Source: a bacterium
Lineage (GTDB): Bacteria > Caldisericota > Caldisericia > Cryosericales > Cryosericaceae
Reading direction: 5' to 3'
NCBI GenBank assembly: GCA_021373025.1
Contig: JAJFTL010000045.1
Coordinates: 1 to 39,167, forward strand
DNA: 39,167 nt
Below the pieces are notes generated by a model. That model saw nothing but the letters and a program-made list of their open reading frames with translations. It did no database searches and had not been told where the DNA came from. Made by a program: the position numbers and the translations under genes. This document shows, one piece after another, positions 18,161 through 32,481 of the stretch; position 1 is the first letter of the stretch, and every line of letters begins with the position of its first letter.

Positions 18161-19153
18161 TTACTTCAGCAGGACACTGGTCACAAGGCTGATACAACCT
18201 TCGACGTCCCCCAGGTCTACCATTTCACTGGAACTGTGGACATACCGGTCAGGAATGCTGATGGCGCCGGTGGGGACACCACTGCCATTGATCTGGATGG
18301 CTGCAGCGTCTGTCGTCCCTGCCTGCAGGACCTCGAGCTGGAAGGGGATCCCGCGATGTCTCGCTGTCTCAATGAGCAGGTCACGGACAACCGGCGTTGC
18401 GACCATGCCGGCATCCTTCACCTTGATGGCGGGTCCCTTGCCCAGGCTGATATCCAGGACATAGCTTTCCGGCGTATCGCCCCAGGCCGTGACGTCGAGA
18501 GCAATAGCAAGGTCCGGCTGCACGCCCCAGGCGCCGACCTTGGCGCCCTTGATGCCGATTTCTTCCTGCACGCTGAACATGCCATAGAGCTCGTAGTTGA
18601 GTTCTTTGCCCGTTACCGCTTTCACTGTCTCGATGAGGACGTAGCAGCCGATGCGATCGTCAAGTGCGGCGGAGGTAACCCTGTTGCCAATTTGCGTGCA
18701 TTCGCCTGAATAGACAGCAAAATCGCCGATGGCGACACGCTGTAGCGCCTCGTCTCTGGATGCTGCGCCGATGTCCAGGAACAGCTTGTCGAGCGTGAGA
18801 TGCTCAAGCGTTGCATGCTCCTTGCTCTCCACGGCCGCAACGCCAATGGTTCCATTGGCGAACACAAAGCGCTGGCCCAGGACCTTGTATGGATCCAGTC
18901 CGCCGACGGCGCCGAAGCGCAGGAATCCGTCCTTGTCGATGTGGGTGATGATAATGCCGATCTGGTCCATGTGTGCAGACAGCAGCAGCTTCGGCTTCCC
19001 CGGAGCAGGGAGGCAGTAGATCAGGTTTCCCAGTGCATCGACCCTGTATTCCAGCTGCAGCCCGTCGAGCTCGCGCGTGATGACGTCCTTGATGCCCTGT
19101 TCGTAGCTGGTCGGTCCCCATGTCTGGGTCAATGTGCGTATGAGTTCATTCAT
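18161..19153 (-). CDS. M42 family metallopeptidase (third of three)
   Basis: Di-metal aminopeptidase of family M42 (PepA-like/glucanase-type TET peptidases), 330 residues. Metal and catalytic residues are all seen: SAHMDQIG (His, Asp), LDDRIG (bridging Asp), QEEIG (catalytic Glu plus ligand), ALDVTAWGDTP (Asp) and RYVHSSSE (His). It begins directly after the stop of the second paralogue with GGAGG inside that gene's end, so it is translationally coupled. Likely role is trimming peptides to amino acids in the cytoplasm. Confidence 0.93.
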   Translation of the reverse strand: MNELIRTLTQTWGPTSYEQGIKDVITRELDGLQLEYRVDALGNLIYCLPAPGKPKLLLSAHMDQIGIIITHIDKDGFLRFGAVGGLDPYKVLGQRFVFANGTIGVAAVESKEHATLEHLTLDKLFLDIGAASRDEALQRVAIGDFAVYSGECTQIGNRVTSAALDDRIGCYVLIETVKAVTGKELNYELYGMFSVQEEIGIKGAKVGAWGVQPDLAIALDVTAWGDTPESYVLDISLGKGPAIKVKDAGMVATPVVRDLLIETARHRGIPFQLEVLQAGTTDAAAIQINGSGVPTGAISIPDRYVHSSSEMVDLGDVEGCISLVTSVLLK

Positions 19154-20194
19154 CTAGGCCTCCATGCTGGCAAGCTGTGCCAGAAATGTCGAAAGAAGCA
19201 ATACCGTGTTTTCGTAGTCCTTAATGTTGATGAGGGACACGGGAGAGTGAATGTAGCGTGCAGGAACAGCAACTGCCAGCGTCCGTACCCCAGCCTTCGT
19301 GAGCTGGATACTGCGGGCATCGGTGCCACCCGATGGCAGGCGCTTGAACTGCCACGGGATTCCGCTTGCCCGGGCCACCTTGATCATCTGGTTACGAAGA
19401 CCATGATCTGTGATCATGCCACCATCCTCGATGGTGAGGACGGGACCAGAACCCAGGCTGGTAACTTCCTGGTAATCCTTCACCTCGCCGATGTCGGCTG
19501 CAATGGTGCCTTCGACCGTGATACTGAGGTCTGGGGTGTAGCGCCATGCTCCCACTGTGGCTCCCTTGCTTCCTACTTCTTCCTGTGCCGAGAACATGCC
19601 GATGATCGGAAAAGACCAGTCTTTCGTAAGCAGCTCGGCGACAATTGCACATCCGACGCGGTCATCAAAAGCCTTACCAACGAGGTAACCGTCTCCGAAT
19701 GTTCCAAACGCCGTGTCGAACGTGATCTGATCACCGATTGTTACCTTGCCTGCGAGCTCCTTGTCCGATTTGGCTCCAACATCGACGACAATATTGTCAA
19801 CCTTGATAACGGTGTTTTCTATTTCTTCCCGGGTCGACAAGTGCACCGCCTTGATGGCAGTTACGCCTGGAAGCCGATCCTTGCCAACCAATACCTTCTT
19901 GCCCAGCAGGAGGCGGTCATCGATACTACCAGCCTTGCCAACGTGCAGGTACCCTTCCTTCGTGATGCGGGTCACAAAGAGGCCAACCTCATCCATGTGC
20001 GCGTTCAGCATAACGGTGGGTCCGGGCTTGTTCATGCCCTTGAGTGCAAACAGATTCTTGATAGCATCCCGCTGGAACCGGTCAACGCGACCCTCGAGTT
20101 CCCCTCTGAGAAGGGTGGCAACGTCGTCTTCCTGTCCAGAGATGCCGCGGGCTTCAGTGAGCCGTTTTAACAAATCAATGCGTCTCTGTTCCAT
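19154..20194 (-). CDS. M42 family metallopeptidase (second of three)
   Basis: 346-residue M42 aminopeptidase. Residues: NAHMDEVG, FDDRVG, AQEEVGSKGA, a Glu (VEGTIAAD) where its neighbours have Asp as the metal ligand, and RYIHSP. The Glu in place of Asp is a known alternative in the family. AGGAG lies six bases before ATG 20194. The start overlaps the end of the first paralogue by 20 bases. Confidence 0.93.
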   Translation of the reverse strand: MEQRRIDLLKRLTEARGISGQEDDVATLLRGELEGRVDRFQRDAIKNLFALKGMNKPGPTVMLNAHMDEVGLFVTRITKEGYLHVGKAGSIDDRLLLGKKVLVGKDRLPGVTAIKAVHLSTREEIENTVIKVDNIVVDVGAKSDKELAGKVTIGDQITFDTAFGTFGDGYLVGKAFDDRVGCAIVAELLTKDWSFPIIGMFSAQEEVGSKGATVGAWRYTPDLSITVEGTIAADIGEVKDYQEVTSLGSGPVLTIEDGGMITDHGLRNQMIKVARASGIPWQFKRLPSGGTDARSIQLTKAGVRTLAVAVPARYIHSPVSLINIKDYENTVLLLSTFLAQLASMEA

Positions 20195-21224
20195 ACAGCT
20201 CTCCTATGAACGCCGCGTCAAAGTCTTTCGCAACCTGGGCAACCAGCCGTGCCGTCCTGTTGACGTCCGTCTGATCGGCAGTCTCGACAGCCGAATGCAT
20301 GTAGCGCAGTGGAATGCTCAGGACACCAGCAGCGATGCCCGGGCCGACAAGCTGAAGTTCGTCCGCGTCCGTGCCCGAGTATGCCATGCACGGTTCTTCA
20401 CTGAAAGGAATCTCGAGGGTCTTGGCACTGCGGCGAAGTAGCTCCAGCACGTGGTCGTTGACGACGGGGCCCACAGTAACACCTGGACCACCCCCCAAAG
20501 GGATGGTCTTGTCCTCTGCCACGCCTTCGGTGTCGCCGTGTGTGACGTCAACCGCAATGCCCACATCGGGATGAGCAACGTACCCACTGGTCCAGGCCCC
20601 ATTTCCAGTAATCTCCTCTTGAACGGTAAAGGCCATGATGACATCATACTGCAAGGCCGAGTCCTTCAACAGTTCCAGCGCCTGGACGAGAGCCACTGCG
20701 CAGAGCCGGTCGTCCTGTGTCTTTCCAGCCCAGCGCTCATTCATGAGGGGAGTGATCCCGGCTGTAAACGTGACCGTCGAACCGATGGGAACCTCCGCGG
20801 CCACTTGTTCGCGCGAGAGGCCGACATCGATCCAAAGCTCATCGACAGCAACCGGCTTCTCCATTTCAGTGTGGGTCATGACATGGACCGGTTTGAGTCC
20901 AATGATGCCGGGCAACAGCCGCGTTCCATGCACGACGACCTGCAGCCCCGGCCAGACGCGCTGGTCGATTGACTTGCAGTAGATACCCAGAAACCCCCTG
21001 TCATTGATCCGTGTCACCCAGGCACCCACCTCGTCGAGATGTGCGGCGAAGAGGATGGCATGTTCACTTGAGTGCCCCCTGCGCACTGCGATAAGATTGC
21101 CCAGGGGCGTGTCATGAATATCGTCGGCGATATCGGTCAGTGCACCTCTCAGGATCTCATGGAGCCGGCGTTCGTCCCCAGAGACCGCATACGCGCTTGT
21201 CAGTTGTTCTACAAGTTTGTGCAT
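20175..21224 (-). CDS. M42 family metallopeptidase (first of three)
   Basis: 349-residue M42 aminopeptidase. Ligand and catalytic motifs: AAHLDEVG, QDDRLC, VQEEITGNGA, VDVTHGD and RYMHSAVE. GGGAG is six bases before ATG 21224. It follows the ECF S-component gene by 46 bases. The three paralogues differ widely in sequence, so they are old duplicates or separate acquisitions rather than a recent tandem copy, and they may differ in peptide preference or form mixed TET particles (inference). Confidence 0.93.
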   Translation of the reverse strand: MHKLVEQLTSAYAVSGDERRLHEILRGALTDIADDIHDTPLGNLIAVRRGHSSEHAILFAAHLDEVGAWVTRINDRGFLGIYCKSIDQRVWPGLQVVVHGTRLLPGIIGLKPVHVMTHTEMEKPVAVDELWIDVGLSREQVAAEVPIGSTVTFTAGITPLMNERWAGKTQDDRLCAVALVQALELLKDSALQYDVIMAFTVQEEITGNGAWTSGYVAHPDVGIAVDVTHGDTEGVAEDKTIPLGGGPGVTVGPVVNDHVLELLRRSAKTLEIPFSEEPCMAYSGTDADELQLVGPGIAAGVLSIPLRYMHSAVETADQTDVNRTARLVAQVAKDFDAAFIGELYGTETH

Positions 21225-21911: not shown

Positions 21912-22607
21912 TCATTCGCCATGCGAAGTGGCCTCGATCTGAGCCTGCTGTTCCCGCGCGCGCTGCTCGGCGCTCTGGATATAGAAGGCCAGCTTGAGGA
22001 ACTCCTGAGACAGGTCCACCGAGAGCACCGGGATACTCGCGGGAACCTTGATGACTCGAGGAGCGAAGTTGAGGATGCCACGGATGCCGGCCTCGCACAG
22101 CAGATCGGCAACCTTGCGGGCACTGGATGCGGGAACGGTCATAACGCCAATGGCAATGTGCTCACGTCGGATGACATCTTTCAGGTCCTCCACGGCATAC
22201 ACTGGGATGCGTCCGATATGCGTCCCGATCTTGCGTGGATCCGTATCGAAGGCAGCAGCATACTTGAACCCCCATTTTTGTACCATGTGGCTGCTGACCA
22301 AGGCTGTTCCCAGTGAGCCTGCGCCTACGATGCAGCACTTCCACCGGTCGACGCCTCGACCAAAGATCAGTTCAATCTCTGTTTTCAGCCTGACAACATC
22401 ATACCCAGAACCACGCTTGCCAACAAGGCCGAATGTGGAAAAGTCCTGTCGCACCTGCTCGGGGGTTACCCCGAGCAGGGCGGCCAGCTCGTGTGATGAG
22501 ACCGTCGACGTATGCTGGTGTTCGAGGTATGTCAGGCATTGCAGGTAGGTTGCCATTCGTGAAACGGTTGCCATGGATATGTACTTTTTCCCGTAAGTTG
22601 TCTTCAT
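21912..22607 (-). CDS. rex: Redox-sensing transcriptional repressor Rex
   Basis: NADH/NAD+-sensing repressor, about 231 residues. The N-terminal winged helix (VSRMATYLQCL, then LAALLGVTPEQVRQDFSTFG and GKRGSGYDV) has the diagnostic R.D.S.FG recognition region. The Rossmann domain shows GAGSLGTAL and FDTDPRKIG, and the C-terminal swapped helix includes LSQEFLKLAFY. I use ATG 22607; a GTG two codons upstream is equally possible. It ends the signalling cassette of the hydrogenase operon. A Rex-type operator lies on the promoter of that operon, 9.8 kb upstream, so Rex probably represses its own transcription when NADH is low. Confidence 0.95.
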   Translation of the reverse strand: MKTTYGKKYISMATVSRMATYLQCLTYLEHQHTSTVSSHELAALLGVTPEQVRQDFSTFGLVGKRGSGYDVVRLKTEIELIFGRGVDRWKCCIVGAGSLGTALVSSHMVQKWGFKYAAAFDTDPRKIGTHIGRIPVYAVEDLKDVIRREHIAIGVMTVPASSARKVADLLCEAGIRGILNFAPRVIKVPASIPVLSVDLSQEFLKLAFYIQSAEQRAREQQAQIEATSHGE

Positions 22608-22627
22608 TGTCACCCGCTCTGATCGCT

Positions 22628-23194
22628 TTATGCGCCACCGCTCTTGTTGCGATGGAGTTCACGTTCCTGTTCACGCAGGAAGTCCAGCAACAGCAGCTGC
22701 GCCTGAGGATCCGAAAGCTCTTCAGACGGGAAGATGGCTTGAAGTTCCTCAGTACAAACAGTATAGGACAGATTTCCTTCAGCGCGGCGGATATGCCAAC
22801 AAACTCTGGGAGCTGAAGTAAGTAGGGTGAGGAAGGTTGAGGGAAGGTCACCCACAGGCAGGCAATCGATGTTCTCCGTATGAAAGGTCGCTGTGAGCAT
22901 CGTTCCTTTGCCTGGAGCGCTGGTCAGCTCAACACCACCACCCGAGAGTTCGGCGTTTTCCCTGAGGAACGGAAGCCCAAGGCCAAATCGCCGGATATTG
23001 TGGGGCCTTGTCGTGAAGAATGGATCGAACACCCTCTCCTGCATGTCGTTATCCATTCCTTTCCCGTTGTCTTGCACTGAGAAGACAAACTGGTGTGTGG
23101 CAGGGTTGTGGTCGACATCGAGCCATATTTCAGTGGCGCCCGCCGTAACGCTGTTGGAAGCAATATCCAGGATATGGTCGGCAATCGTTCTCAC
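22628..23194 (-). CDS. Stand-alone HATPase_c (GHKL) protein
   Basis: 188-residue protein with a histidine-kinase-type ATP-binding domain but no visible phosphoacceptor His region, sensor or membrane span. N box: DIASNSVTAGA; G1: DNGKGMD; F box: FFTTRP; G2: GLGLPFL and the final APGKGT. The C-terminal 70 residues are unassigned and contain two Cys. It begins at a GTG overlapping the PHP gene stop by four bases (GTGA). Such ATPases recur in hydrogenase operons of anaerobes; the target is unknown. No response regulator is nearby. Confidence 0.85.
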   Translation of the reverse strand: MRTIADHILDIASNSVTAGATEIWLDVDHNPATHQFVFSVQDNGKGMDNDMQERVFDPFFTTRPHNIRRFGLGLPFLRENAELSGGGVELTSAPGKGTMLTATFHTENIDCLPVGDLPSTFLTLLTSAPRVCWHIRRAEGNLSYTVCTEELQAIFPSEELSDPQAQLLLLDFLREQERELHRNKSGGA

Positions 23195-23922
23195 AAGAGC
23201 CGTACCTTTCTGCCTCGCTCATGCCGGAGTGCCGTCAAAACCTCATGTACTGACAGTTCCTCGATTTCAAGAACGAAGCGAGGAGGACTCATGGAATCGA
23301 GATTGTGAGCGTCGCTGTTCGAGATGATCTGAGGATGACCCGGCAGGTTTGGTAGAATCTTTTCGATATTGATTCGGTGTGTGATCTCATACGTGATGAA
23401 CTGCATCTCAGGTGTTACCATGCCCAGCTGATAGAGAAGCCCATAGTGGCGATCCAGGTGGCTTGGCACCACAACGCCGCCAAGCCGCTCAGCCAAGCCT
23501 CTCAGCTCATCCAGGCTCAGCGAGCTGGCCATGGAAAGAAGAAAGGGGAACTGGCCGACATACTCATCTCGTTCGTTGCAGATCAGCTGGTACCCAAAGC
23601 GTTCCGGATCGTTGGCAATGCGCGGATACGAGGCGAACAGCGTGCGACTGAAAGCCCAGAGAGCATGGAGTGTCTCGAAATAGCACAGCAGGTGCACTTC
23701 CTCTGCGGTCGTTGCCTCTATTCCGGGGACCAGCAGGACACCATTCTGTTGAAACACCCGCTGAAAGACACCCACATTGCATGCCGTGTTATGGTCGGTC
23801 AACGAAGCAACCTGGATACCCCGGCTCGCAAGCCTGCGAGTCATCTCACGCGGCAGCATCGTGATGTCAGCGCACGGTGACAGACACGAATGCAGGTGCA
23901 GGTCGGCTGGTACCTCCAGCAC
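23191..23922 (-). CDS. PHP-domain phosphoesterase
   Basis: 243-residue PHP (polymerase and histidinol phosphatase) domain protein. Metal-binding motifs are complete: DLHLHS, LTDHN, GIEATTAEEVH, VPSHLD and SDAH. This supports a trinuclear-metal phosphoesterase; the substrate is unknown. It starts at GTG 23922 with TGAGGT upstream, and overlaps the ATPase gene downstream. Tight packing with the DRTGG and ATPase genes suggests it acts in the same signalling circuit, perhaps removing phosphate from a protein or nucleotide (inference). Confidence 0.85.
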   Translation of the reverse strand: MLEVPADLHLHSCLSPCADITMLPREMTRRLASRGIQVASLTDHNTACNVGVFQRVFQQNGVLLVPGIEATTAEEVHLLCYFETLHALWAFSRTLFASYPRIANDPERFGYQLICNERDEYVGQFPFLLSMASSLSLDELRGLAERLGGVVVPSHLDRHYGLLYQLGMVTPEMQFITYEITHRINIEKILPNLPGHPQIISNSDAHNLDSMSPPRFVLEIEELSVHEVLTALRHERGRKVRLL

Positions 23923-23925
23923 GGG

Positions 23926-24258
23926 CTACCTCAGTCCCAGTGCATAGAGTTTGCCGGACACGAGGAACGCAGAGTCCCTCGAGTAGAGGATTGAGATCTG
24001 TTCCTTGACAGCACGCTCAATCACGTCTGGCTCGCAGGTACGTCCCTCGCAGACGATGATCACGCTGATACCGACCATCGACGCAACAGCGACGACATTG
24101 AGATGTGTCTGGATAGTTGCCCAGGCAGAGCCCGGGAGGGCTTTTGCAATGACTTCTGAGAGCAGATCGCATGTGTACCCGTGCGTGACGCTCTTCGTAA
24201 GGTCCGCCTGAACTGCGATCTCGGCATCAAGCGTTCCAATCACTTCCTGTACGGTCAT
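23926..24258 (-). CDS. DRTGG-domain protein (second copy)
   Basis: 110-residue protein resembling a stand-alone DRTGG domain, a fold also found in phosphotransacetylases and CBS-linked pyrophosphatases. Visible parts: HGYTCDLLSEVIAKALPGSAW, IIVCEGRTCEP and the end SGKLYALGLR, which matches the end of the other copy. GGAGG precedes ATG 24258, which overlaps the CBS-ATPase stop (ATGA). Likely a small ligand-binding or regulatory subunit; the ligand is not known. Confidence 0.75.
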   Translation of the reverse strand: MTVQEVIGTLDAEIAVQADLTKSVTHGYTCDLLSEVIAKALPGSAWATIQTHLNVVAVASMVGISVIIVCEGRTCEPDVIERAVKEQISILYSRDSAFLVSGKLYALGLR

Positions 24259-25196
24259 GTTCCCTCCAGCTTGGTGTTTGCAAGAAAGATCATCTCAACT
24301 TTGGTTGGCTTTCCCTTGCCCGAGATGATGACAAGGTGGTCGGAGAACCGGCGAATGTTGGGGAGGCCCATACCAGCCCCAAAACCTTTTTCACGGACGG
24401 CATCGGGGGCAGTAGACCAGCCTTCCTTCATGGCAAGATCAACGTTCTCGATCCCCGGCCCCTCGTCTTCTACGCGCACGATGACCTCGCCATCGCGGAC
24501 AATGGCTCGCAGCGAACCCTTTCCTCCTGCATGAATGCAGACATTGACCTCCGCTTCATAGGCGGAGACACTTGCCCTGCGGATGATTGACTCATCCAGG
24601 CCCTTGCTCTGCAGGAATGCCTTAAGGCGGGCAGAGCCTTCACCGGCATGATCCAGTCCCTGGGAGCTGATGTCATAGGAGAAGTCGGCACTGTTGTCGA
24701 ACTCCTGTGACAGAGCTGAGAAGCTCCCGATCGTGGCCATGCGCTGCCGATCATGAACGTACACTGAGTAGAAGCTCTGGACGATCGCCGACAGAACATC
24801 GATGTCGGTGATCATGCCGACCAGCTTGCCATCCTCGTCGACAACTGGGAATCGGCCGAACTTGTACCGCTGGAAGTACGACAAGACGGTCTCAAGGCTG
24901 TCATGAACATGCAAGGTGACGACATCTCTTGTCATGGCTGACTCCAGTGGCTCGGCAAGGCGGCCGTCGGCAAGGGCTTCGATAATCTTCGAGACAGAAA
25001 TAATCCCCACCAGGCGAAAATCGGCATCGACGATGGGCACCCCAGAAATTGACTTTTCCCGCATGAGGCTGCGGGCAGCAGCGACGCGGTCTTCAGGATG
25101 AAGAGCATACACTGCGGGAGACATAATACTCGCAGCATCGAGGCTGCTGAACAGGCCCAGGTACCGCAGGGCCTCTACGCTCTGTTGAAGCGACAC
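24255..25196 (-). CDS. CBS-pair protein fused to RsbW-like ATPase
   Basis: 313 residues. Two CBS motifs (about residues 20-75: MSPAVYALHPED to GIISVSK; about 85-140: MTRDVVTLHVHDS to GMITDIDVL) form an adenine-nucleotide-sensing module. From about residue 195 there is a GHKL ATPase of the anti-sigma/serine-kinase kind: AYEAEVNVCIHAGG (N box), DEGPGIE (G1) and GAGMGLPNIRR (G2). GTG start at 25196, two bases after the first DRTGG gene. It suggests energy-state input controlling a kinase-like output in the hydrogenase operon (inference). Confidence 0.85.
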   Translation of the reverse strand: MSLQQSVEALRYLGLFSSLDAASIMSPAVYALHPEDRVAAARSLMREKSISGVPIVDADFRLVGIISVSKIIEALADGRLAEPLESAMTRDVVTLHVHDSLETVLSYFQRYKFGRFPVVDEDGKLVGMITDIDVLSAIVQSFYSVYVHDRQRMATIGSFSALSQEFDNSADFSYDISSQGLDHAGEGSARLKAFLQSKGLDESIIRRASVSAYEAEVNVCIHAGGKGSLRAIVRDGEVIVRVEDEGPGIENVDLAMKEGWSTAPDAVREKGFGAGMGLPNIRRFSDHLVIISGKGKPTKVEMIFLANTKLEGT

Positions 25197-25198
25197 GG

Positions 25199-25537
25199 TT
25201 ACCCTGTCAGGCCATGGGCATAGAGCTTACCCGAGGCAACGTACATGATGTCACGGGTTGCCAGGACAATGACGCCTGTCGCGCGTGCCAACTCAATGAC
25301 TTCCGAAGGGACCTGTTTGCCCCGTACGACCAGGATGGCCGGAAGGTCGAGCATCTGCGCGGTCCGGATGATCTGGGGGGTGGTGAGTCCTGTGATGAGC
25401 AGGGTCCCTGGCCCACTCATGGCCAGCACATCACTCATGAGGTCCGAAGCAAAGGCATGAGTCACCTCCACGTCCTCCAGGTGATGTCCTGCAACACAGG
25501 TCGCCTGGGTAATCTCCATAACCTCGCTCATCTTCAT
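25199..25537 (-). CDS. DRTGG-domain protein (first copy)
   Basis: 112-residue DRTGG-like protein. Parts: HAFASDLMSDVLAMSGPGTLL, ITGLTTPQIIRTA, ILVVRGKQVPSEVIELA and SGKLYAHGL. Start at ATG 25537 with GGAGG about ten bases upstream. It lies 36 bases after the second NuoF gene and opens the signalling cassette. The second copy, encoded two genes later, is a clear but diverged paralogue. Confidence 0.78.
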   Translation of the reverse strand: MKMSEVMEITQATCVAGHHLEDVEVTHAFASDLMSDVLAMSGPGTLLITGLTTPQIIRTAQMLDLPAILVVRGKQVPSEVIELARATGVIVLATRDIMYVASGKLYAHGLTG

Positions 25538-25573: not shown

Positions 25574-27184
25574 TCAGACGCTCTCAGCCGAGGCCTCCGG
25601 CACATGTGATGCGGCAAGAGCCTGCTCGAAGACTTGCGGGAAGTTACGCAAGGCGGACTCGAAGGCCAACGGCACTGCCTGCCCCAGCCCGCAGAACGAG
25701 GTGTTGGTGAACGTGTTCATGAGGCGGCTGAGCCGCTGCAGGGCAGCAGGGTCGGCTGTCCTGCTGACGAGCGCATCCAGGATGGTCTTGACCTGGAGGG
25801 TTCCTTCCCGGCAAGGCGTACACCTGCCACAGGACTCATGCCAGAAGAAGTGAGCTACCTCGGCCAGGAACGGCAGGAGCGGCACGTCCTCCGACGCCAC
25901 CAGAATGACGCCCGACCCAAGGGACACATTGCTGGTCTTCATAGAGGAGAAGTCGAGAGGGACATCCAGCTCTCGCTCCGAGACGACCGTCCCGGCACTG
26001 CCTCCCGTCTGGAGGAAGCCGATGTGTCTGCCCCCGGTGATCCCTCCGCCAAAGTCATAGACGAGCTCTCGCAGGGTGGTCCCCATCGGGGCCTCGACGA
26101 TGCCGCGGTTTACGATGTCACCCGAGAGCGAAAATACCTTGGTGCCGGCGCTCGAAGGGGTCCCGAAGGAGCGAAACCATTCGCTGCCGTTGAGCAGGAT
26201 CGGAGGCACATTGGCAAAAGTCTCTACGTTGTTGACCACGGTGGGCTTGCCAAACAGTCCCCGCTGGGGCGGGAACGGCGGCTTGTTCCGTGGTTCGCCG
26301 CGCTGGTTCTCGATGGACTCGAGCAGGGCAAACTCCTCGCCGCAGACGTAGGCACCGCCGCCGCGGTAGACCTCAAGGTTGAAGGAGAATCCGGTCCCCA
26401 GAATGCCGTCCCCCAGCAGACCATATGCTGTGGCATCCGCGATGGCCTTCTTGAGGCGGGCAATGGACATGACGTACTCGCCCCGGACATAAACGATCCC
26501 GATATGGGCCCCCGTGGCATAGCCCGCAATGGCCATGGCCTCCACGATGCTATGTGGATCCCCTTCGAGAATGAGGCGGTCCTTGAACGTGCCGGGCTCC
26601 CCCTCGTCAGCATTGCACACGATGTACTTCTCGTCGCTCTGCTCCTTTGCGACCATGCCCCACTTCAGGCCGGTAGGGAACCCTGCTCCTCCCCGTCCCT
26701 GGAGTTTACTATCGGTCAGAACCTGGATGACCTCGCCTGGCTGCATCGCCAGAGCCTTAGCCAGTGCGGCATACCCGTCGCGAGCGATGTATTCGTCTAT
26801 GCTCTGGGGATCGATGAGTCCGGCGTTGCGCAGAACGATCTTCTGCTGACTCTTCCCCGTCTCCTTCTCCACCATGCGCCGGGAGGACAGGGAGCGGTCA
26901 ATGGCAAGACGTTTCACGACGCGTCCCTTGAGGAGGTGCTCCGTCACAATCTCCTGAATATCGGAAGGTGTGACGTTGCCGTAGTAGACATCATCTGGGA
27001 AAACAGCCAGTACGACCCCTTGGTCATAGATGCCAAGGGCGCCGGTCTCCACCACGGAGACCTGGCTGGCCAGGTTGTACGTGCGAATCGTCTCCTCCAA
27101 GAGATGCTTGACCTCGAGGGCTCCCTGAAGAACGGAGTTGGAATCGACGGGAATGACGATCTGGGTCGAGAACAGTTTCTTCAC
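25574..27184 (-). CDS. NuoF-type flavin/Fe-S subunit, second copy in the operon
   Basis: 536-residue NADH-binding diaphorase subunit. FMN/NAD region: GRGGAGFPTGLKW, CNADEGEPGTFKDR and GAYVCGEEFALL. The 4Fe-4S site is SCGRCTPCREG with the fourth Cys in SFCGLGQ. Unlike the HndC paralogue it lacks the two C-terminal ferredoxin clusters. The N-terminal thioredoxin-like domain has lost its cluster cysteines (ETGALGIYDQG against ETGCMGACDLG in HndC). It starts within the stop of the second NuoE gene. It may serve as an alternative NADH module of the hydrogenase or of another enzyme (inference). Confidence 0.92.
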   Translation of the reverse strand: MKKLFSTQIVIPVDSNSVLQGALEVKHLLEETIRTYNLASQVSVVETGALGIYDQGVVLAVFPDDVYYGNVTPSDIQEIVTEHLLKGRVVKRLAIDRSLSSRRMVEKETGKSQQKIVLRNAGLIDPQSIDEYIARDGYAALAKALAMQPGEVIQVLTDSKLQGRGGAGFPTGLKWGMVAKEQSDEKYIVCNADEGEPGTFKDRLILEGDPHSIVEAMAIAGYATGAHIGIVYVRGEYVMSIARLKKAIADATAYGLLGDGILGTGFSFNLEVYRGGGAYVCGEEFALLESIENQRGEPRNKPPFPPQRGLFGKPTVVNNVETFANVPPILLNGSEWFRSFGTPSSAGTKVFSLSGDIVNRGIVEAPMGTTLRELVYDFGGGITGGRHIGFLQTGGSAGTVVSERELDVPLDFSSMKTSNVSLGSGVILVASEDVPLLPFLAEVAHFFWHESCGRCTPCREGTLQVKTILDALVSRTADPAALQRLSRLMNTFTNTSFCGLGQAVPLAFESALRNFPQVFEQALAASHVPEASAESV

Positions 27185-27714
27185 TGTGCACCTCCTGCGC
27201 GCACTGCCGCAAGGATCCCTGGCAAATCCTTCGGGGTGAGGTTGCCATATGCATCGTCATCGATCATAAGCGCAGGAGAGACTCCGCAGATACCCAGGCA
27301 GCTGGAACCTTCCAGAGTGAAGGCCCCGTCCGGCGTCGTTTCGCCTTCGCCCACACCTAGTAGGCGCTCAAGCTCTGCCATGACAGCTGGGGCGCCCGTC
27401 ACATGACAGGGCCCGCTCGTGCAGACACGGATCACATGCCGGCCTCTCGGTTTCGTGGAGAGCATCGTATAGAAGGTGACGAAGCCATTGAGTTGCGCGA
27501 CTGACGTCCCCACCAGGCGTGCCACCTCCCGCAGCACCTCCCCGGGAAGGAAATTGCCATACCGATGCTCCACCTCGAAGAGAATGTCCATGTAGGAGAC
27601 CCTGCCATGGTGCTCGACCCGGTCCCGCTCGACAACTTCCTGTAAAAAAGCTCTGTCCTCCACAGACAGTGCTGTTGCTTTTTCTGGTGACTGCACCTTC
27701 TTATCCGGCTCCAT
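27181..27714 (-). CDS. NuoE-type [2Fe-2S] subunit, second copy
   Basis: 177-residue NuoE/24-kDa-like thioredoxin-fold ferredoxin. The four cluster cysteines lie in CTSGPC and CLGICG. The FVTFYTMLSTKPRGRH region is typical. ATG 27714 has GGGGAGG six bases upstream; an in-frame ATG at 27732 lacks spacing. It overlaps the second NuoF by four bases, forming an E-F pair distinct from HndA-HndC. Confidence 0.92.
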   Translation of the reverse strand: MEPDKKVQSPEKATALSVEDRAFLQEVVERDRVEHHGRVSYMDILFEVEHRYGNFLPGEVLREVARLVGTSVAQLNGFVTFYTMLSTKPRGRHVIRVCTSGPCHVTGAPAVMAELERLLGVGEGETTPDGAFTLEGSSCLGICGVSPALMIDDDAYGNLTPKDLPGILAAVRAGGAQ

Positions 27715-27779
27715 GCGTTCCTCCCCGATCATATCGTGTCGAACCTCTCACATCAACGGGCGAAGCTGGTCCACGTCCA

Positions 27780-27835: not shown

Positions 27836-29614
27836 CTATTCACCGCTGCGATCGTGGTACGTGGTATGCAGCAGATGATGAGCCTTCTCACTGTTCGGCT
27901 CGCCCAGAAAATCCTTGTAGATCTCCTGGATCTCAGGATTCTCATGCGACTTCCGGATCGGCTTACCGGCATCTTCACGGTAGATGGCCTCTGCACGCCT
28001 CTTCTTGATATCCGGATTGTTCGAAAGGGGTTGTCCGCCGCCGCCGAGGCAGCCACCAGGGCAGGTCATAATCTCGATGAACTGATAGGGCGACTCGCCC
28101 TTCTGTACTTCTTCAATAAGAATGCGTGCGTTTCCAAGTCCGTTTGCAATCGCAACCCGTAGCGGCGTTCCATCGATGTCGATGGTAGCACTCTTCATCC
28201 CCTCAAGTCCACGCACATCTTCAAAGTCGAGTCTTGGCAATGACTTCCTGGTAAGGACTTCATAAGCCGTTCGCAGTGCAGCTTCCATGACGCCACCGGT
28301 AGCACCAAAAATTACGCCTGCACCACTCGATTCGCCCAGTGGTTTGTCGAAGTCTTCATCGGGCAGGTTTGCAAAATCGATACCTGCTTCGCGGATCATC
28401 CTTGCCGCTTCGCGGGTTGTCAGGACGAAGTCGACGTCGTTGAAGGCTTCTTCGTCCTTGAGGCTCATTTTCTCCTGCCAGTAGTGAAAAGCCGTTTTCA
28501 TTTCGGGGCGTTCCTTTTCAAATTTCTTGGCAGTGCACGGCATGACCGACACAACAACGATCTTCCTTGGGTCAAATCCCATCTTCTCGGCCCAGTATGT
28601 CTTTGTCACTGTACCAAACATCTGTTGCGGAGACTTGCAGGAGGAGACATAGTCGAGCACTCCCGGGAAGAACGTTTCTGCGAACTTGATCCAGCCGGGC
28701 GAACAAGACGTTATCAGCGGCAATGTGCCCCCGTTCTTGATGCGCCCAATAAGCTCGAATCCCTCCTCCATTATTGTCAGATCGGCAGAGAAGTCCGTGT
28801 CAAAGACCTTGTTAAAGCCGAGACTGCGGAGCGCAGCGGCCATCTTGCCGGTAGCCTGTGTCCCGTCAGGCATGCCAAATTCCTCGCCGATGGCCACACG
28901 CACTGCAGGAGCAGTCTCGACGACCACAATCTTGTCAGGATCTCCCAGTACCTTCCAGACGTCCGGGATCTCACTTCGCTCAGTAAGGGCGCCGGTGGGG
29001 CAGACAAGCAAGCATTGCCCACAGTTCACGCACTCGACATTGCCCAGGCCTTCATTCAGGAATGTCGACACCGTGCTGTTCGAGCCACGGCCTGCGATAT
29101 CAATGGCATAGACGGACTGAACCTTGGCGCACACGTTCACACAGCGCCTGCAGAGAATACACTTGTTGGGGTCACGCACCAGTGACAGCGAGGTATTGTC
29201 GATCGGCAGCCACTCCGTGCGGGTACGTGGAAATTCTACTTCCCGCACACCCAGCTCTGATGCCAGGTCGCGAAGATCGCAGTTCTCCGTCCTCTCGCAC
29301 GTGAAGCAATCTGTTGGATGATTTGCCAGCAACAGTTCGACGTTGATTTTGCGTGCCTCACGGACACGCGCTGTGTTGGTCCAGATCTCCATGCCCTCGC
29401 TGACCTTGGTCAGGCAAGCACGTGGAAGGTTGCGAGTACCTTTGACGTCGACAACACAGACGCCACAGGCGCCTTCCTCGCTGATTCCTTCGAGGTAGCA
29501 GAGTGTCGGTATTTCGATATTTGCATACGCGCTTGCTGCCTCGAGGATGGTGCTCCCATCCGGCACCTGGTAGTCCCGTCCGTTGATCTTTACATGCAGT
29601 GTTCTCATCTCCAT
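27836..29614 (-). CDS. hndD: [FeFe]-hydrogenase catalytic subunit (HndD/HydA type)
   Basis: Catalytic subunit of a bifurcating [FeFe]-hydrogenase, 592 residues. Order of parts: N-terminal [2Fe-2S] domain (CYLEG...GACGVC), His-ligated 4Fe-4S (HPTDCFTCERTENC), two 4Fe-4S motifs (CILCRRCVNVC, CVNCGQCLLVC), then the H-cluster domain with P1 TSCSPGW, P2 MPCTAKKFE and P3 EIMTCPGGCLGGGGQP, all intact. A small-subunit tail (IREDAGKP-like, here YREDAGKPIRKSHENP) closes it. ATG 29614 has GGGAGG six bases upstream. It starts 19 bases after hndC. The maturases HydE, HydF and HydG are not in the window. Confidence 0.97.
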   Translation of the reverse strand: MEMRTLHVKINGRDYQVPDGSTILEAASAYANIEIPTLCYLEGISEEGACGVCVVDVKGTRNLPRACLTKVSEGMEIWTNTARVREARKINVELLLANHPTDCFTCERTENCDLRDLASELGVREVEFPRTRTEWLPIDNTSLSLVRDPNKCILCRRCVNVCAKVQSVYAIDIAGRGSNSTVSTFLNEGLGNVECVNCGQCLLVCPTGALTERSEIPDVWKVLGDPDKIVVVETAPAVRVAIGEEFGMPDGTQATGKMAAALRSLGFNKVFDTDFSADLTIMEEGFELIGRIKNGGTLPLITSCSPGWIKFAETFFPGVLDYVSSCKSPQQMFGTVTKTYWAEKMGFDPRKIVVVSVMPCTAKKFEKERPEMKTAFHYWQEKMSLKDEEAFNDVDFVLTTREAARMIREAGIDFANLPDEDFDKPLGESSGAGVIFGATGGVMEAALRTAYEVLTRKSLPRLDFEDVRGLEGMKSATIDIDGTPLRVAIANGLGNARILIEEVQKGESPYQFIEIMTCPGGCLGGGGQPLSNNPDIKKRRAEAIYREDAGKPIRKSHENPEIQEIYKDFLGEPNSEKAHHLLHTTYHDRSGE

Positions 29615-29633
29615 GAGGTTCCTCCCGCCTGGT

Positions 29634-31418
29634 TTACTCTTTGAGAATGGCATCAAACCGACAGACCTCGTAACAGGATCCACACTTGATACAGGTGGCC
29701 TGATCAATGACGTGAGCTTTCTTAACCTGGCCCGTGATCGCCTGGACCGGGCACTGGCGTGCGCATGCCGTGCAGCCAACACACTTTTCCGACACAACAC
29801 TGTAGGTGAGCAGATGGAGGCAGGCATGAGCCGGGCACTTCCTGTCCTCGATGTGCGCGCGGTACTCGTCTGGGAAGAAACGAATGGTGGACAGCACCGG
29901 GTTGGGAGCCGACTGTCCCAGTCCGCACAGCGATGTCTGCTGGATGACCCGTCCCAAGGTCTTCAGTTTGCCGATGTCATTGGGTGTGCCCTTGCCATCC
30001 GTGATGCGTTCCATAATCTGGTACATCTGCTTCGTCCCCTCCCGGCAGGGCGTACACTTGCCACAGGACTCATCTACCGTGAAGGCAAGATAGAACTTGG
30101 CAACATCGACCATGCAATTATCCTCGTCCAGGATGATAAGACCACCAGACCCCATGATGGTTCCCAGTTCCTTGACCGAATCGAAGTCGATGGGCATGTC
30201 CAGGTAGTCGGCCGTTATGATGCCACCCGACGGCCCTCCCGTCTGGGCGCCCTTGAACGCCTTGCCCCCCGGGATGCCACCGCCGATGTCAAAGACCAGT
30301 TCCCGCAGCGTCGTTCCCATGGGGACTTCCACAAGGCCGGTGTTCTGGACCTTGCCCGCCAGGGCAAAGACCTTGGTGCCAGGACTCTTGGCGGTTCCCA
30401 CGCTGCGGAACCACTCTGCCCCGTTGATAAGGATCGGGGGCACGTTGGCATACGTCTCGACATTGTTGATGAGCGTCGGCTTGCCCCACAGCCCTGCCTG
30501 GGCCGGGAACGGAGGCTTAGCACTTGGCATGCCTCGCTTTCCCTCAATGGAGCGCAGGAGCGCCGTCTCCTCTCCACACACGAAGGCACCGGCGCCGATC
30601 CGGATCTCAATATCGAAGTCGAAGCCGCTCCCCAGGATGTTCCGGCCCAGGAAGCCATATTCACGAGCTCGGGTGAGGGCAACTTCAAGGCGCTCGATGG
30701 CAAGGGGATACTCGGCACGCACATAGACGTAGCCGGTGGCTGCCCCGATGGCAAATCCGGCGATCACCATGGCCTCGATCACCGAATGCGGGTCTCCCTC
30801 GAGCACACTGCGGTCCATGAAGGCCCCCGGATCTCCCTCGTCCCCGTTGCAAACAACGTACTTGGGCGAGCCTGATGCGTCTCTCGCTGCCTTCCACTTG
30901 ATGCCGGTGGGAAATCCTGCACCTCCCCGCCCGCGCAGACCTGACTCCTGAATGGTCTGAATGATAGCATCCGGACCAATCTCCAGCGCCTTGCCAAGGC
31001 CAAAGTAGCCATCGCGAGCAATATACTCCTCGATGGACAGCGGATCGATAACACCGCAGTTGCGCAGTACCCGCTTGACCTGCAGGGTGTAGAAGGAGAT
31101 CTCCTCCCTCGTCTGCGCCCGGGTTTCGCTTGTGGGTTGACGATACAGGAGGCCGGAAACTACGCGCCCCTTCACAAGATGCTCGCTCACTATGGGGCCT
31201 GCATTCTGCGGCGTTACTTTCTGGTAGAACGTCCCCTCCGGATAGACAACCACGATGGGACCCAAGTCGCATGCCCCCATGCAGCCCGTCTCGATGATCT
31301 GGACCTCGTCCTGGATGCCGTTCTTAGCCAGCTCCTCGACCAAGACATCCTTCACGCTCTTTTCCCCGCTTGTGATACAAGCGCCACCTGCGCAGATCAA
31401 CAGCTGATTTCGTATCAT
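29634..31418 (-). CDS. hndC: NADH/NADP-binding flavin subunit HndC (NuoF/HydB type)
   Basis: 594-residue diaphorase subunit that links NAD(P)H, flavin and ferredoxin chemistry. It has an N-terminal [2Fe-2S] thioredoxin-like domain (CAGGACITSG, then ETGCMGACD), an FMN/NAD core (GRGGAGFPTGIKW, CNGDEGDPGAFMDR, GAFVCGEETALL), the 4Fe-4S site SCGKCTPCREG with SLCGLGQ, and two C-terminal ferredoxin clusters (CVGCTACARQCPV, CIKCGSCYEVC). All cofactor sites of the bifurcating HydB type are present. Gene order hndA-B-C-D matches the Desulfovibrio Hnd enzyme. Confidence 0.97.
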   Translation of the reverse strand: MIRNQLLICAGGACITSGEKSVKDVLVEELAKNGIQDEVQIIETGCMGACDLGPIVVVYPEGTFYQKVTPQNAGPIVSEHLVKGRVVSGLLYRQPTSETRAQTREEISFYTLQVKRVLRNCGVIDPLSIEEYIARDGYFGLGKALEIGPDAIIQTIQESGLRGRGGAGFPTGIKWKAARDASGSPKYVVCNGDEGDPGAFMDRSVLEGDPHSVIEAMVIAGFAIGAATGYVYVRAEYPLAIERLEVALTRAREYGFLGRNILGSGFDFDIEIRIGAGAFVCGEETALLRSIEGKRGMPSAKPPFPAQAGLWGKPTLINNVETYANVPPILINGAEWFRSVGTAKSPGTKVFALAGKVQNTGLVEVPMGTTLRELVFDIGGGIPGGKAFKGAQTGGPSGGIITADYLDMPIDFDSVKELGTIMGSGGLIILDEDNCMVDVAKFYLAFTVDESCGKCTPCREGTKQMYQIMERITDGKGTPNDIGKLKTLGRVIQQTSLCGLGQSAPNPVLSTIRFFPDEYRAHIEDRKCPAHACLHLLTYSVVSEKCVGCTACARQCPVQAITGQVKKAHVIDQATCIKCGSCYEVCRFDAILKE

Positions 31419-31440: not shown

Positions 31441-31809
31441 CTACAAGTTCCCCCGCTTGATCACCAGCTCAGCCACCACCTGGCCTCCCTGGACATGCTC
31501 GCGCACGATTCGACGGGCATTCGCATCGTCGACATCACCGTAAATGACAGAGGGCTGGTCCTTCATGGACACCTCGATGGTCGGTTCCCGATCACACAGG
31601 CCCATGCAGCCGGATTGCACCACCTGCACATCATGGACGCCTGCCTTGTCCAGCTCATCGATGACGGCCATGAGCGTGTCCTTGGCTCCCGCGGCAATAC
31701 CGCATGTTCCCATGGCGACGACGATCTTGCCCCGATCCTTGGCCTGACGCAGATCCATAGCCTTAAGGGTCTCCTCCTTGATGCGCTTCAGTTCTTCCAG
31801 TGATTTCAT
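31441..31809 (-). CDS. hndB: [2Fe-2S] thioredoxin-like subunit HndB
   Basis: 122-residue ferredoxin-like subunit. It begins with a helical LEELKRIKEETLKAM segment, then a thioredoxin-like fold with cluster cysteines in MGTCGIAAGA and QSGCMGLCDREP. Its order between the NuoE- and NuoF-type genes, 22 bases from each, is that of hndB in the tetrameric NAD(P)-dependent hydrogenase. GAGGAGG lies upstream of ATG 31809. Confidence 0.93.
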   Translation of the reverse strand: MKSLEELKRIKEETLKAMDLRQAKDRGKIVVAMGTCGIAAGAKDTLMAVIDELDKAGVHDVQVVQSGCMGLCDREPTIEVSMKDQPSVIYGDVDDANARRIVREHVQGGQVVAELVIKRGNL

Positions 31810-31831: not shown

Positions 31832-32332
31832 TTAGACGTACTTGTTCAGCAGTGTGACGACTTTGTCTGGCGTCATCCGGCCATAGGTATCCTTGTCGAT
31901 AACGACCACCGGGGCAAGGCCGCAGGCTCCCACACAGCGCACCAGGTCGAGCGTGTACCGCCCGTCGGGGGAGGTCTCGCCTGCCTTGATGCCCAGAGAC
32001 TTCGTCACCTTGTCATACACGCTGTTGCTGCCGCGGACGTAACAGGCAGTCCCGAGACACACACTGATCGTGTGGCGCCCCTTAGGAGTACGGCTGAAGA
32101 AATGGTAGAAGGTTACGACGCCGTATACTGTCGAGCGAGGCACCTGCAGCCGGGTAGACACATATGCCAGCACCTCGTCCGGCAGGTAGCCGAAGATCTC
32201 TTGGGCGCGGTGCATCACATTGATGAGACTGCCCTGCTGCCCTGCCTTCTCGTCAATGTATGCGTCCAGCTCGTCAAACTGCTTCCTCAGTACAGGGTTT
32301 TCCTTCAATCGTTCTTCCAGGTTTATCTGCAT
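31832..32332 (-). CDS. hndA: NuoE-type [2Fe-2S] subunit HndA
   Basis: 166-residue first subunit of the hydrogenase. ATG 32332 follows GAGGAGG at seven bases; the upstream frame crosses the leader and is not used. It has the helical N-terminus, VVTFYHFFSRTPKGRH, and cluster ligands in CLGTAC and CVGACG. It is the first gene after the Rex-operated promoter. A leader of about 110 bases precedes it. Confidence 0.96.
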   Translation of the reverse strand: MQINLEERLKENPVLRKQFDELDAYIDEKAGQQGSLINVMHRAQEIFGYLPDEVLAYVSTRLQVPRSTVYGVVTFYHFFSRTPKGRHTISVCLGTACYVRGSNSVYDKVTKSLGIKAGETSPDGRYTLDLVRCVGACGLAPVVVIDKDTYGRMTPDKVVTLLNKYV

Positions 32333-32434: not shown

Positions 32435-32452
32435 TTGTGATTTTTCTAACAT
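32435..32452 (-). promoter_or_regulatory. Rex operator
   Basis: Plus-strand TTGTGA-N6-TAACAT is an 18-base near-perfect inverted repeat fitting the Rex pattern TTGTKA-N6-TMACAA with one outer mismatch. It lies directly downstream of the -10 box and covers the likely start point, where bound Rex would block transcription. rex itself is encoded in the same run. Confidence 0.75.
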
Positions 32453-32453
32453 A

Positions 32454-32481
32454 ACTATATCAGATCACATTTCTGTGTCAA
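32454..32481 (-). promoter_or_regulatory. Promoter of the hydrogenase operon
   Basis: Minus strand TTGACA (32476-32481) and TATAGT (32454-32459), 16-base spacer: the best-matching promoter in the window. Rex operator follows immediately. Confidence 0.82.

Follow-up and report, generated by a model that had tools for sequence, protein, structure and literature searches.

A conserved putative signalling gene cassette adjoining redox enzymes, with a CBS-carrying form beside a Caldisericota [FeFe] hydrogenase

Putative sensory [FeFe] hydrogenases of group D (M2e), here termed HydS, are encoded upstream of trimeric electron-bifurcating hydrogenases, e.g. TamHydS and Cthe_0335, and a histidine kinase-like ATPase or a kinase has been noted beside them (PMC8163306, PMC13104023, PMC3561251), but their interaction partners are stated to be unknown (PMC13104023). 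A related idea, an H2 sensor feeding a serine kinase/phosphatase pair near hydrogenase genes, comes from the group C, PAS-linked HydS of R. albus and the hfsABCD genes (PMC5707799, PMC11837493). Two other described systems share components with the locus examined here: the partner-switching kinases SpoIIAB and RsbW, which are GHKL ATPases, and the CBS-type manganese pyrophosphatases, in which a CBS pair and a DRTGG domain form the regulatory region (PDB 3L2B, 3L31). In this study, we analyzed a window of 39,167 nucleotides (contig JAJFTL010000045.1, assembly GCA_021373025.1) from a 1.6-Mb, 98%-complete genome of a Caldisericota lineage. An earlier note, made from this sequence alone, had described in it a five-gene signalling cassette of unknown function inside a hydrogenase operon.

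The five genes are present as the note had described them, packed on the minus strand with gaps or overlaps of -4 to +3 bases. They form the distal part of a 12-gene operon that begins with the subunits of an NAD-linked [FeFe] hydrogenase of group A6, but the note stopped too early, as the operon ends with rex, located 14 bases after HATP. Two of the Pfam assignments (DRTGG2 and PHP) fell below the curated cut-offs; both are supported by the invariance of key residues among their orthologues.

Table 1 Features of the operon, listed from the cassette outwards; L numbers designate loci of our collection.
Feature	Position	Strand	Description	Evidence
DRTGG1	25199..25537	-	Stand-alone DRTGG protein (112 aa); invariant Ser35 in motif D-L-M-S-D, predicted at a helix start after a strand	Pfam DRTGG 1.3e-6; S35 in 109 of 109 sequences; AF2 model pLDDT 96, nearest folds CBS-PPase DRTGG domain, AF1212, HPr kinase N-domain
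CBS-RsbW	24255..25196	-	CBS pair fused to an RsbW/SpoIIAB-like ATPase (313 aa); N-box E214-x3-N218, G1 DEGPGI and G2 GAGMGLPN intact; [ST]-x-x-D ribose motif present in CBS2 (T130-D-I-D133), aspartate lost in CBS1 (S-V-S-K)	Pfam CBS 3.9e-31, HATPase_c_2 9.6e-10; best PDB hit of the ATPase profile SpoIIAB, 3e-12; alignment
DRTGG2	23926..24258	-	Second DRTGG protein (110 aa); invariant D31 and Ser34	Pfam DRTGG 0.0013, below cut-off; D31 and S34 in 99 of 99 orthologues
PHP	23191..23922	-	PHP-family metallophosphoesterase (243 aa); metal ligands H9 H11 D43 H44 E69 H155 D204 H206 intact	Pfam PHP 1.3e-5, 26.1 bits, just under the 26.4 cut-off; ligands in 103 of 103
HATP	22628..23194	-	Stand-alone GHKL ATPase (188 aa); conserved C-terminal beta-beta-alpha-alpha part, no phosphoacceptor (HisKA) domain	Pfam HATPase_c 8.6e-17; AF2 model pLDDT 95, top fold match MutL N-terminal region, then histidine-kinase catalytic domains
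Rex	21912..22613	-	NADH/NAD+-sensing repressor, last gene of the operon	NCBIfam Rex 4.8e-68; also adjacent in L030, L060, L137, L138, L140
NuoF (second)	25574..27184	-	Second NuoF-type subunit (536 aa)	NuoF family 3.8e-143
NuoE (second)	27181..27732	-	Second NuoE-type [2Fe-2S] subunit	Pfam 2Fe-2S_thioredx 1.4e-40
HydA	27836..29632	-	[FeFe] hydrogenase catalytic subunit, group A6; start inferred from 598-aa congeners	NF040763, 874 bits (cut-off 765); congener length; only Fe_hyd_lg_C protein in the genome
HydB	29634..31418	-	NuoF-type diaphorase/bifurcation subunit with C-terminal 4Fe-4S domains	NuoF family 3.6e-151
TrxFd	31441..31809	-	Thioredoxin-like [2Fe-2S] ferredoxin subunit, usually next to HATP in relatives	Pfam 2Fe-2S_thioredx 0.002; synteny
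HydC	31832..32332	-	NuoE-type subunit; start inferred from 166-aa congeners	Pfam 2Fe-2S_thioredx 1.3e-51; congeners
Promoter	32454..32481	-	Operon promoter, TTGACA-16-TATAGT with TG before the -10	11 of 12 matches
Palindrome	32435..32452	.	Weak Rex-operator-like palindrome TTGTGATTTTTCTAACAT directly after the -10	3 mismatches to a degenerate consensus

In order to determine whether the cassette is conserved, we collected loci using only the RsbW ATPase domain or the CBS-RsbW protein as query, taking the 80 best from GTDB genomes and 60 regions from a spread of 386 genomes. This gave 139 loci after removal of near-duplicates of the window and counting the window itself, and their neighbours were identified with family HMMs. 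A DRTGG gene was found in the same operon in 136 of the 139 loci, with a median DRTGG1-RsbW gap of -4, indicating that the co-location is not due to chance; two DRTGG genes were found in 116, PHP in 107, HATP in 85, and a HydA-like Fe-S protein in 96. HydB- or HydC-type genes lie within 8 kb in 90 loci, so the absence of co-occurrence with hydrogenases, which the note had named as grounds for rejecting its proposal, was not observed. Nevertheless, among the 97 loci with full flanks, 26 have no recognized redox complex within 8 kb. In the broad sample outside the window genus, 40 of 40 families have DRTGG, 34 PHP, 30 HATP, and 29 a recognized redox complex nearby. As genomes in one panel carry two to eight NuoF-type genes, we estimate that a chance hit within 16 kb would be expected in only a few per cent of loci. 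The order DRTGG–RsbW–[group D HydS]–DRTGG–PHP–(HydC)–HATP–TrxFd–HydB–HydA recurs in 18 named phyla, counting that of the window, and the cassette genes of the window follow it (DRTGG-RsbW-DRTGG-PHP-HATP) beside a HydABC operon.

The frequent protein of ~435 amino acids encoded between RsbW and DRTGG2 in the relatives is group D HydS. The H-cluster cysteines are conserved, the C-terminal Cx2Cx4Cx16C motif is present in 93 of 93 sequences, and Ser/Thr replaces Met353 in 78 of 93, as published for this group (PMC8163306). This usual sensor was missed by the note and is absent from the window genome, where profile searches returned only ferredoxin-like and HydA matches. Instead, RsbW carries a CBS pair. 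CBS-fused kinases occur in about a dozen other lineages, mostly without HydS, although two lineages have both. We considered a repeated sensor swap, with CBS gained whenever HydS is lost. The raw counts look strong, with HydS in 4 of 21 CBS loci against 93 of 118 others (by family, 2 of 11 against 23 of 29; Fisher p=0.0007), but the CBS label is clustered on the tree and only one pair was marked as independent. As a result, we claim an association only.

Natural fusions tie the kinase, DRTGG, and sensor into one system. RsbW is fused to DRTGG1 in L030, L060, L075, L168, and L172, to a DRTGG domain at its other end in the Caldisericota loci L147 and L186-L189 (and in L022 by Pfam), to HydS in L175 (525 aa, verified with Pfam), and, as in the window, to a CBS pair.

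The cassette is not restricted to hydrogenases. It adjoins Rnf in L054, L077, L083, L147, and L186-L189; in the first three, from Anaerosolibacter and Marinisporobacter, it directly precedes rnfCDGEAB. In L150 and L155, an Nfn-type enzyme precedes it; a wider Nfn count from a profile of our own was discarded because this profile also picks up long fused HydB proteins. Moreover, the one-contig Caldisericota genome G028 (1,558,103 bp) and four other genomes with the cassette (G154, G054, G073, and G313, of which G054 is only 59% complete) have no Fe_hyd_lg_C domain but do have NuoF-type genes, resembling the Bfu enzymes that lack an H-cluster (PMC9304861). In genomes without an [FeFe]-hydrogenase domain, the cassette also adjoins HydABC-like complexes. 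The common factor is therefore NAD/ferredoxin enzymes rather than H2 chemistry, and a role limited to hydrogenase was rejected.

The ATPase domain of RsbW has SpoIIAB as its nearest solved relative and retains all the ATP-binding boxes of a GHKL serine kinase. In contrast, profile searches of the window genome returned no STAS-domain antagonist (PF01740, 0 matches; the control gave matches in 10 of 14 genomes) and no SpoIIE-type phosphatase (PF07228, 0 matches; the control gave matches in 5 of 14). The genome contains eight Sigma70_r2 genes, none of them next to the cassette, where DRTGG proteins take the neighbour position. No HisKA phosphoacceptor or response regulator domain was found with Pfam in the five proteins or Rex, which does not fit a two-component system. 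Compared with the CBS-type pyrophosphatases, the CBS pair and the DRTGG fold are on separate proteins, without a pyrophosphatase domain and linked to a kinase. Compared with the R. albus system, the sensor group differs, as do the PAS domain and the serine phosphatase, and no DRTGG/PHP/RsbW cassette has been reported there.

Based on these observations, we tentatively favour a model, somewhat less than evenly likely in our view, in which the cassette is an accessory signalling module of NAD(H)/ferredoxin electron-bifurcating complexes. The sensor (H2/redox through HydS in most lineages, adenine nucleotides through CBS in this one) would gate a SpoIIAB-like serine kinase, the kinase would phosphorylate the invariant serine of one or both DRTGG proteins, and the PHP enzyme would reverse this modification or remove a nucleotide ligand. 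The DRTGG state, probably through the MutL/HK-like ATPase HATP, would then set the activity or assembly of the HydABC-type complex, whereas Rex would add NADH-dependent transcriptional control. The synteny, the fusions, the intact motifs, and the absence of STAS, SpoIIE, and HydS were established by our analysis; however, the ligand and its binding, the phosphorylation, the substrate of PHP, and the target are inferences from sequence and predicted structure. The invariant serine may be structural or ligand-binding, since a serine aligns at this position in the unrelated DRTGG protein AF1212. SpoIIAB-like domains can act as pure binders, and PHP may act on a nucleotide. The absence of HydS where CBS is present is neither exceptionless nor phylogenetically independent.

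The interpretation given in the earlier note is thus supported in part. A signalling cassette linked to hydrogenase operons, a nucleotide-type (CBS) input fused to a serine-kinase-like ATPase, and the lack of a response regulator are supported, whereas a specific link to hydrogenase is not, and classical partner switching is unlikely.

Two other explanations remain possible, although we consider both unlikely. In the first, DRTGG and CBS would bind an adenine (di)nucleotide, PHP would make or destroy it, and the ATPases would read it without any protein phosphorylation. This is consistent with the nearest fold of DRTGG1, from the CBS-plus-DRTGG regulatory region of CBS-type pyrophosphatases, and with the weak similarity of PHP to nucleoside 3',5'-bisphosphate phosphatase, but 118 of 139 cassettes lack CBS and the SpoIIAB-like catalytic boxes are intact. 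In the second, the GHKL ATPases and DRTGG proteins would be chaperones or scaffolds that insert Fe-S clusters or assemble the bifurcating complex, with no signalling. HATP sits between HydC and TrxFd/HydB in many operons and its model best matches the MutL ATPase, a protein-remodelling type of ATPase; however, the fusion of RsbW to the sensor domains CBS and HydS argues for a signal input, and many HydABC loci are known without such genes. Classical partner switching, with RsbW as an anti-sigma factor/kinase controlling transcription of the operon through a phosphorylated antagonist, is the least likely despite the proximity of its domain to the anti-sigma F factor SpoIIAB and the sigma factor genes of the genome, given the missing STAS and SpoIIE proteins, the few sigma-like genes among all 139 loci (none inside a cassette), and the standard sigma-70-type promoter of the operon.

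Group D HydS was already known as a putative sensor with a kinase-like neighbour, but literature searches, limited to open-access papers, returned no description of the DRTGG/PHP/HATP set as a unit or of its linkage to Rnf and non-hydrogenase enzymes. The locus of the window differs from the described clusters by its CBS pair and lack of HydS. A bolder possibility, which we regard as doubtful though not excluded, is an undescribed class of bacterial serine-kinase switch, with DRTGG proteins in place of STAS antagonists and exchangeable H2-sensing (HydS) or adenylate-sensing (CBS) inputs, that post-translationally gates electron-bifurcating NAD/ferredoxin complexes across many anaerobic phyla. 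How anaerobes set the direction and rate of electron-bifurcating hydrogenases and Rnf is an open question that bears on biohydrogen, acetogenesis, and syntrophy, and in most lineages the cassette supplies specific candidate partners for group D HydS (RsbW, two DRTGG proteins, PHP, and HATP), including a natural RsbW-HydS fusion in which H2-dependent kinase activity could be sought in a single polypeptide.

With regard to transcription, one strong promoter precedes HydC. The Rex-like palindrome behind it is weak, as about 2 such sites are expected per window by chance, and it was not seen upstream of HydC in two congeners, so a conserved Rex operator was rejected. Finally, BamA, OmpA, and helicase genes were found next to some cassettes and were treated as unrelated.

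The cassette was also found in other settings. In one locus collected with the RsbW-like ATPase domain (L175), the kinase is naturally fused to a group D HydS, and the resulting protein may be a single-chain H2-sensing kinase. In three other cassette loci (L054, L077, and L083), the genes RsbW-DRTGG-PHP-HATP sit directly upstream of rnfCDGEAB with no hydrogenase genes. In two further loci (L150 and L155) the position directly upstream of the cassette is occupied by an Nfn-type enzyme. A one-contig Caldisericota genome (G028, locus L147) has an RsbW-DRTGG fusion between Rnf and a HydABC-like cluster but no [FeFe]-hydrogenase domain anywhere, perhaps indicating a Bfu-type bifurcating enzyme of unknown third substrate.

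Coordinates of additional features in the window and in related cassette loci.
Locus	Position	Strand	Feature
L175	6741-8318		RsbW-like kinase fused to group D HydS in one 525-aa protein
L150	5327-7624		Nfn-type fused NADH/ferredoxin:NADP oxidoreductase (765-785 aa with L155)
L155	5097-7454		Nfn-type fused NADH/ferredoxin:NADP oxidoreductase (765-785 aa with L150)
Window	25574-27732		Second NuoE-NuoF pair, following HydA
Window	18161-21224	minus	Three tandem M42-family aminopeptidase genes, downstream of rex

Because of the additional NuoE-NuoF pair, the complex encoded in the window may have two diaphorase modules; similar double HydB arrangements occur in the cassette loci L147-L149, L156, L167, and L183-L188. 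In L131, L138, L144, L149, and L175, the HydB homologs are about 1,000 aa, longer than usual (about 600 aa), and are apparently fused to another oxidoreductase domain. A MAG contig labelled Euryarchaeota (L026) carries the CBS-RsbW cassette and HydABC-like genes, which could reflect either transfer or mis-binning. Finally, tandem aminopeptidase genes of the M42 family lie beyond rex in the window.
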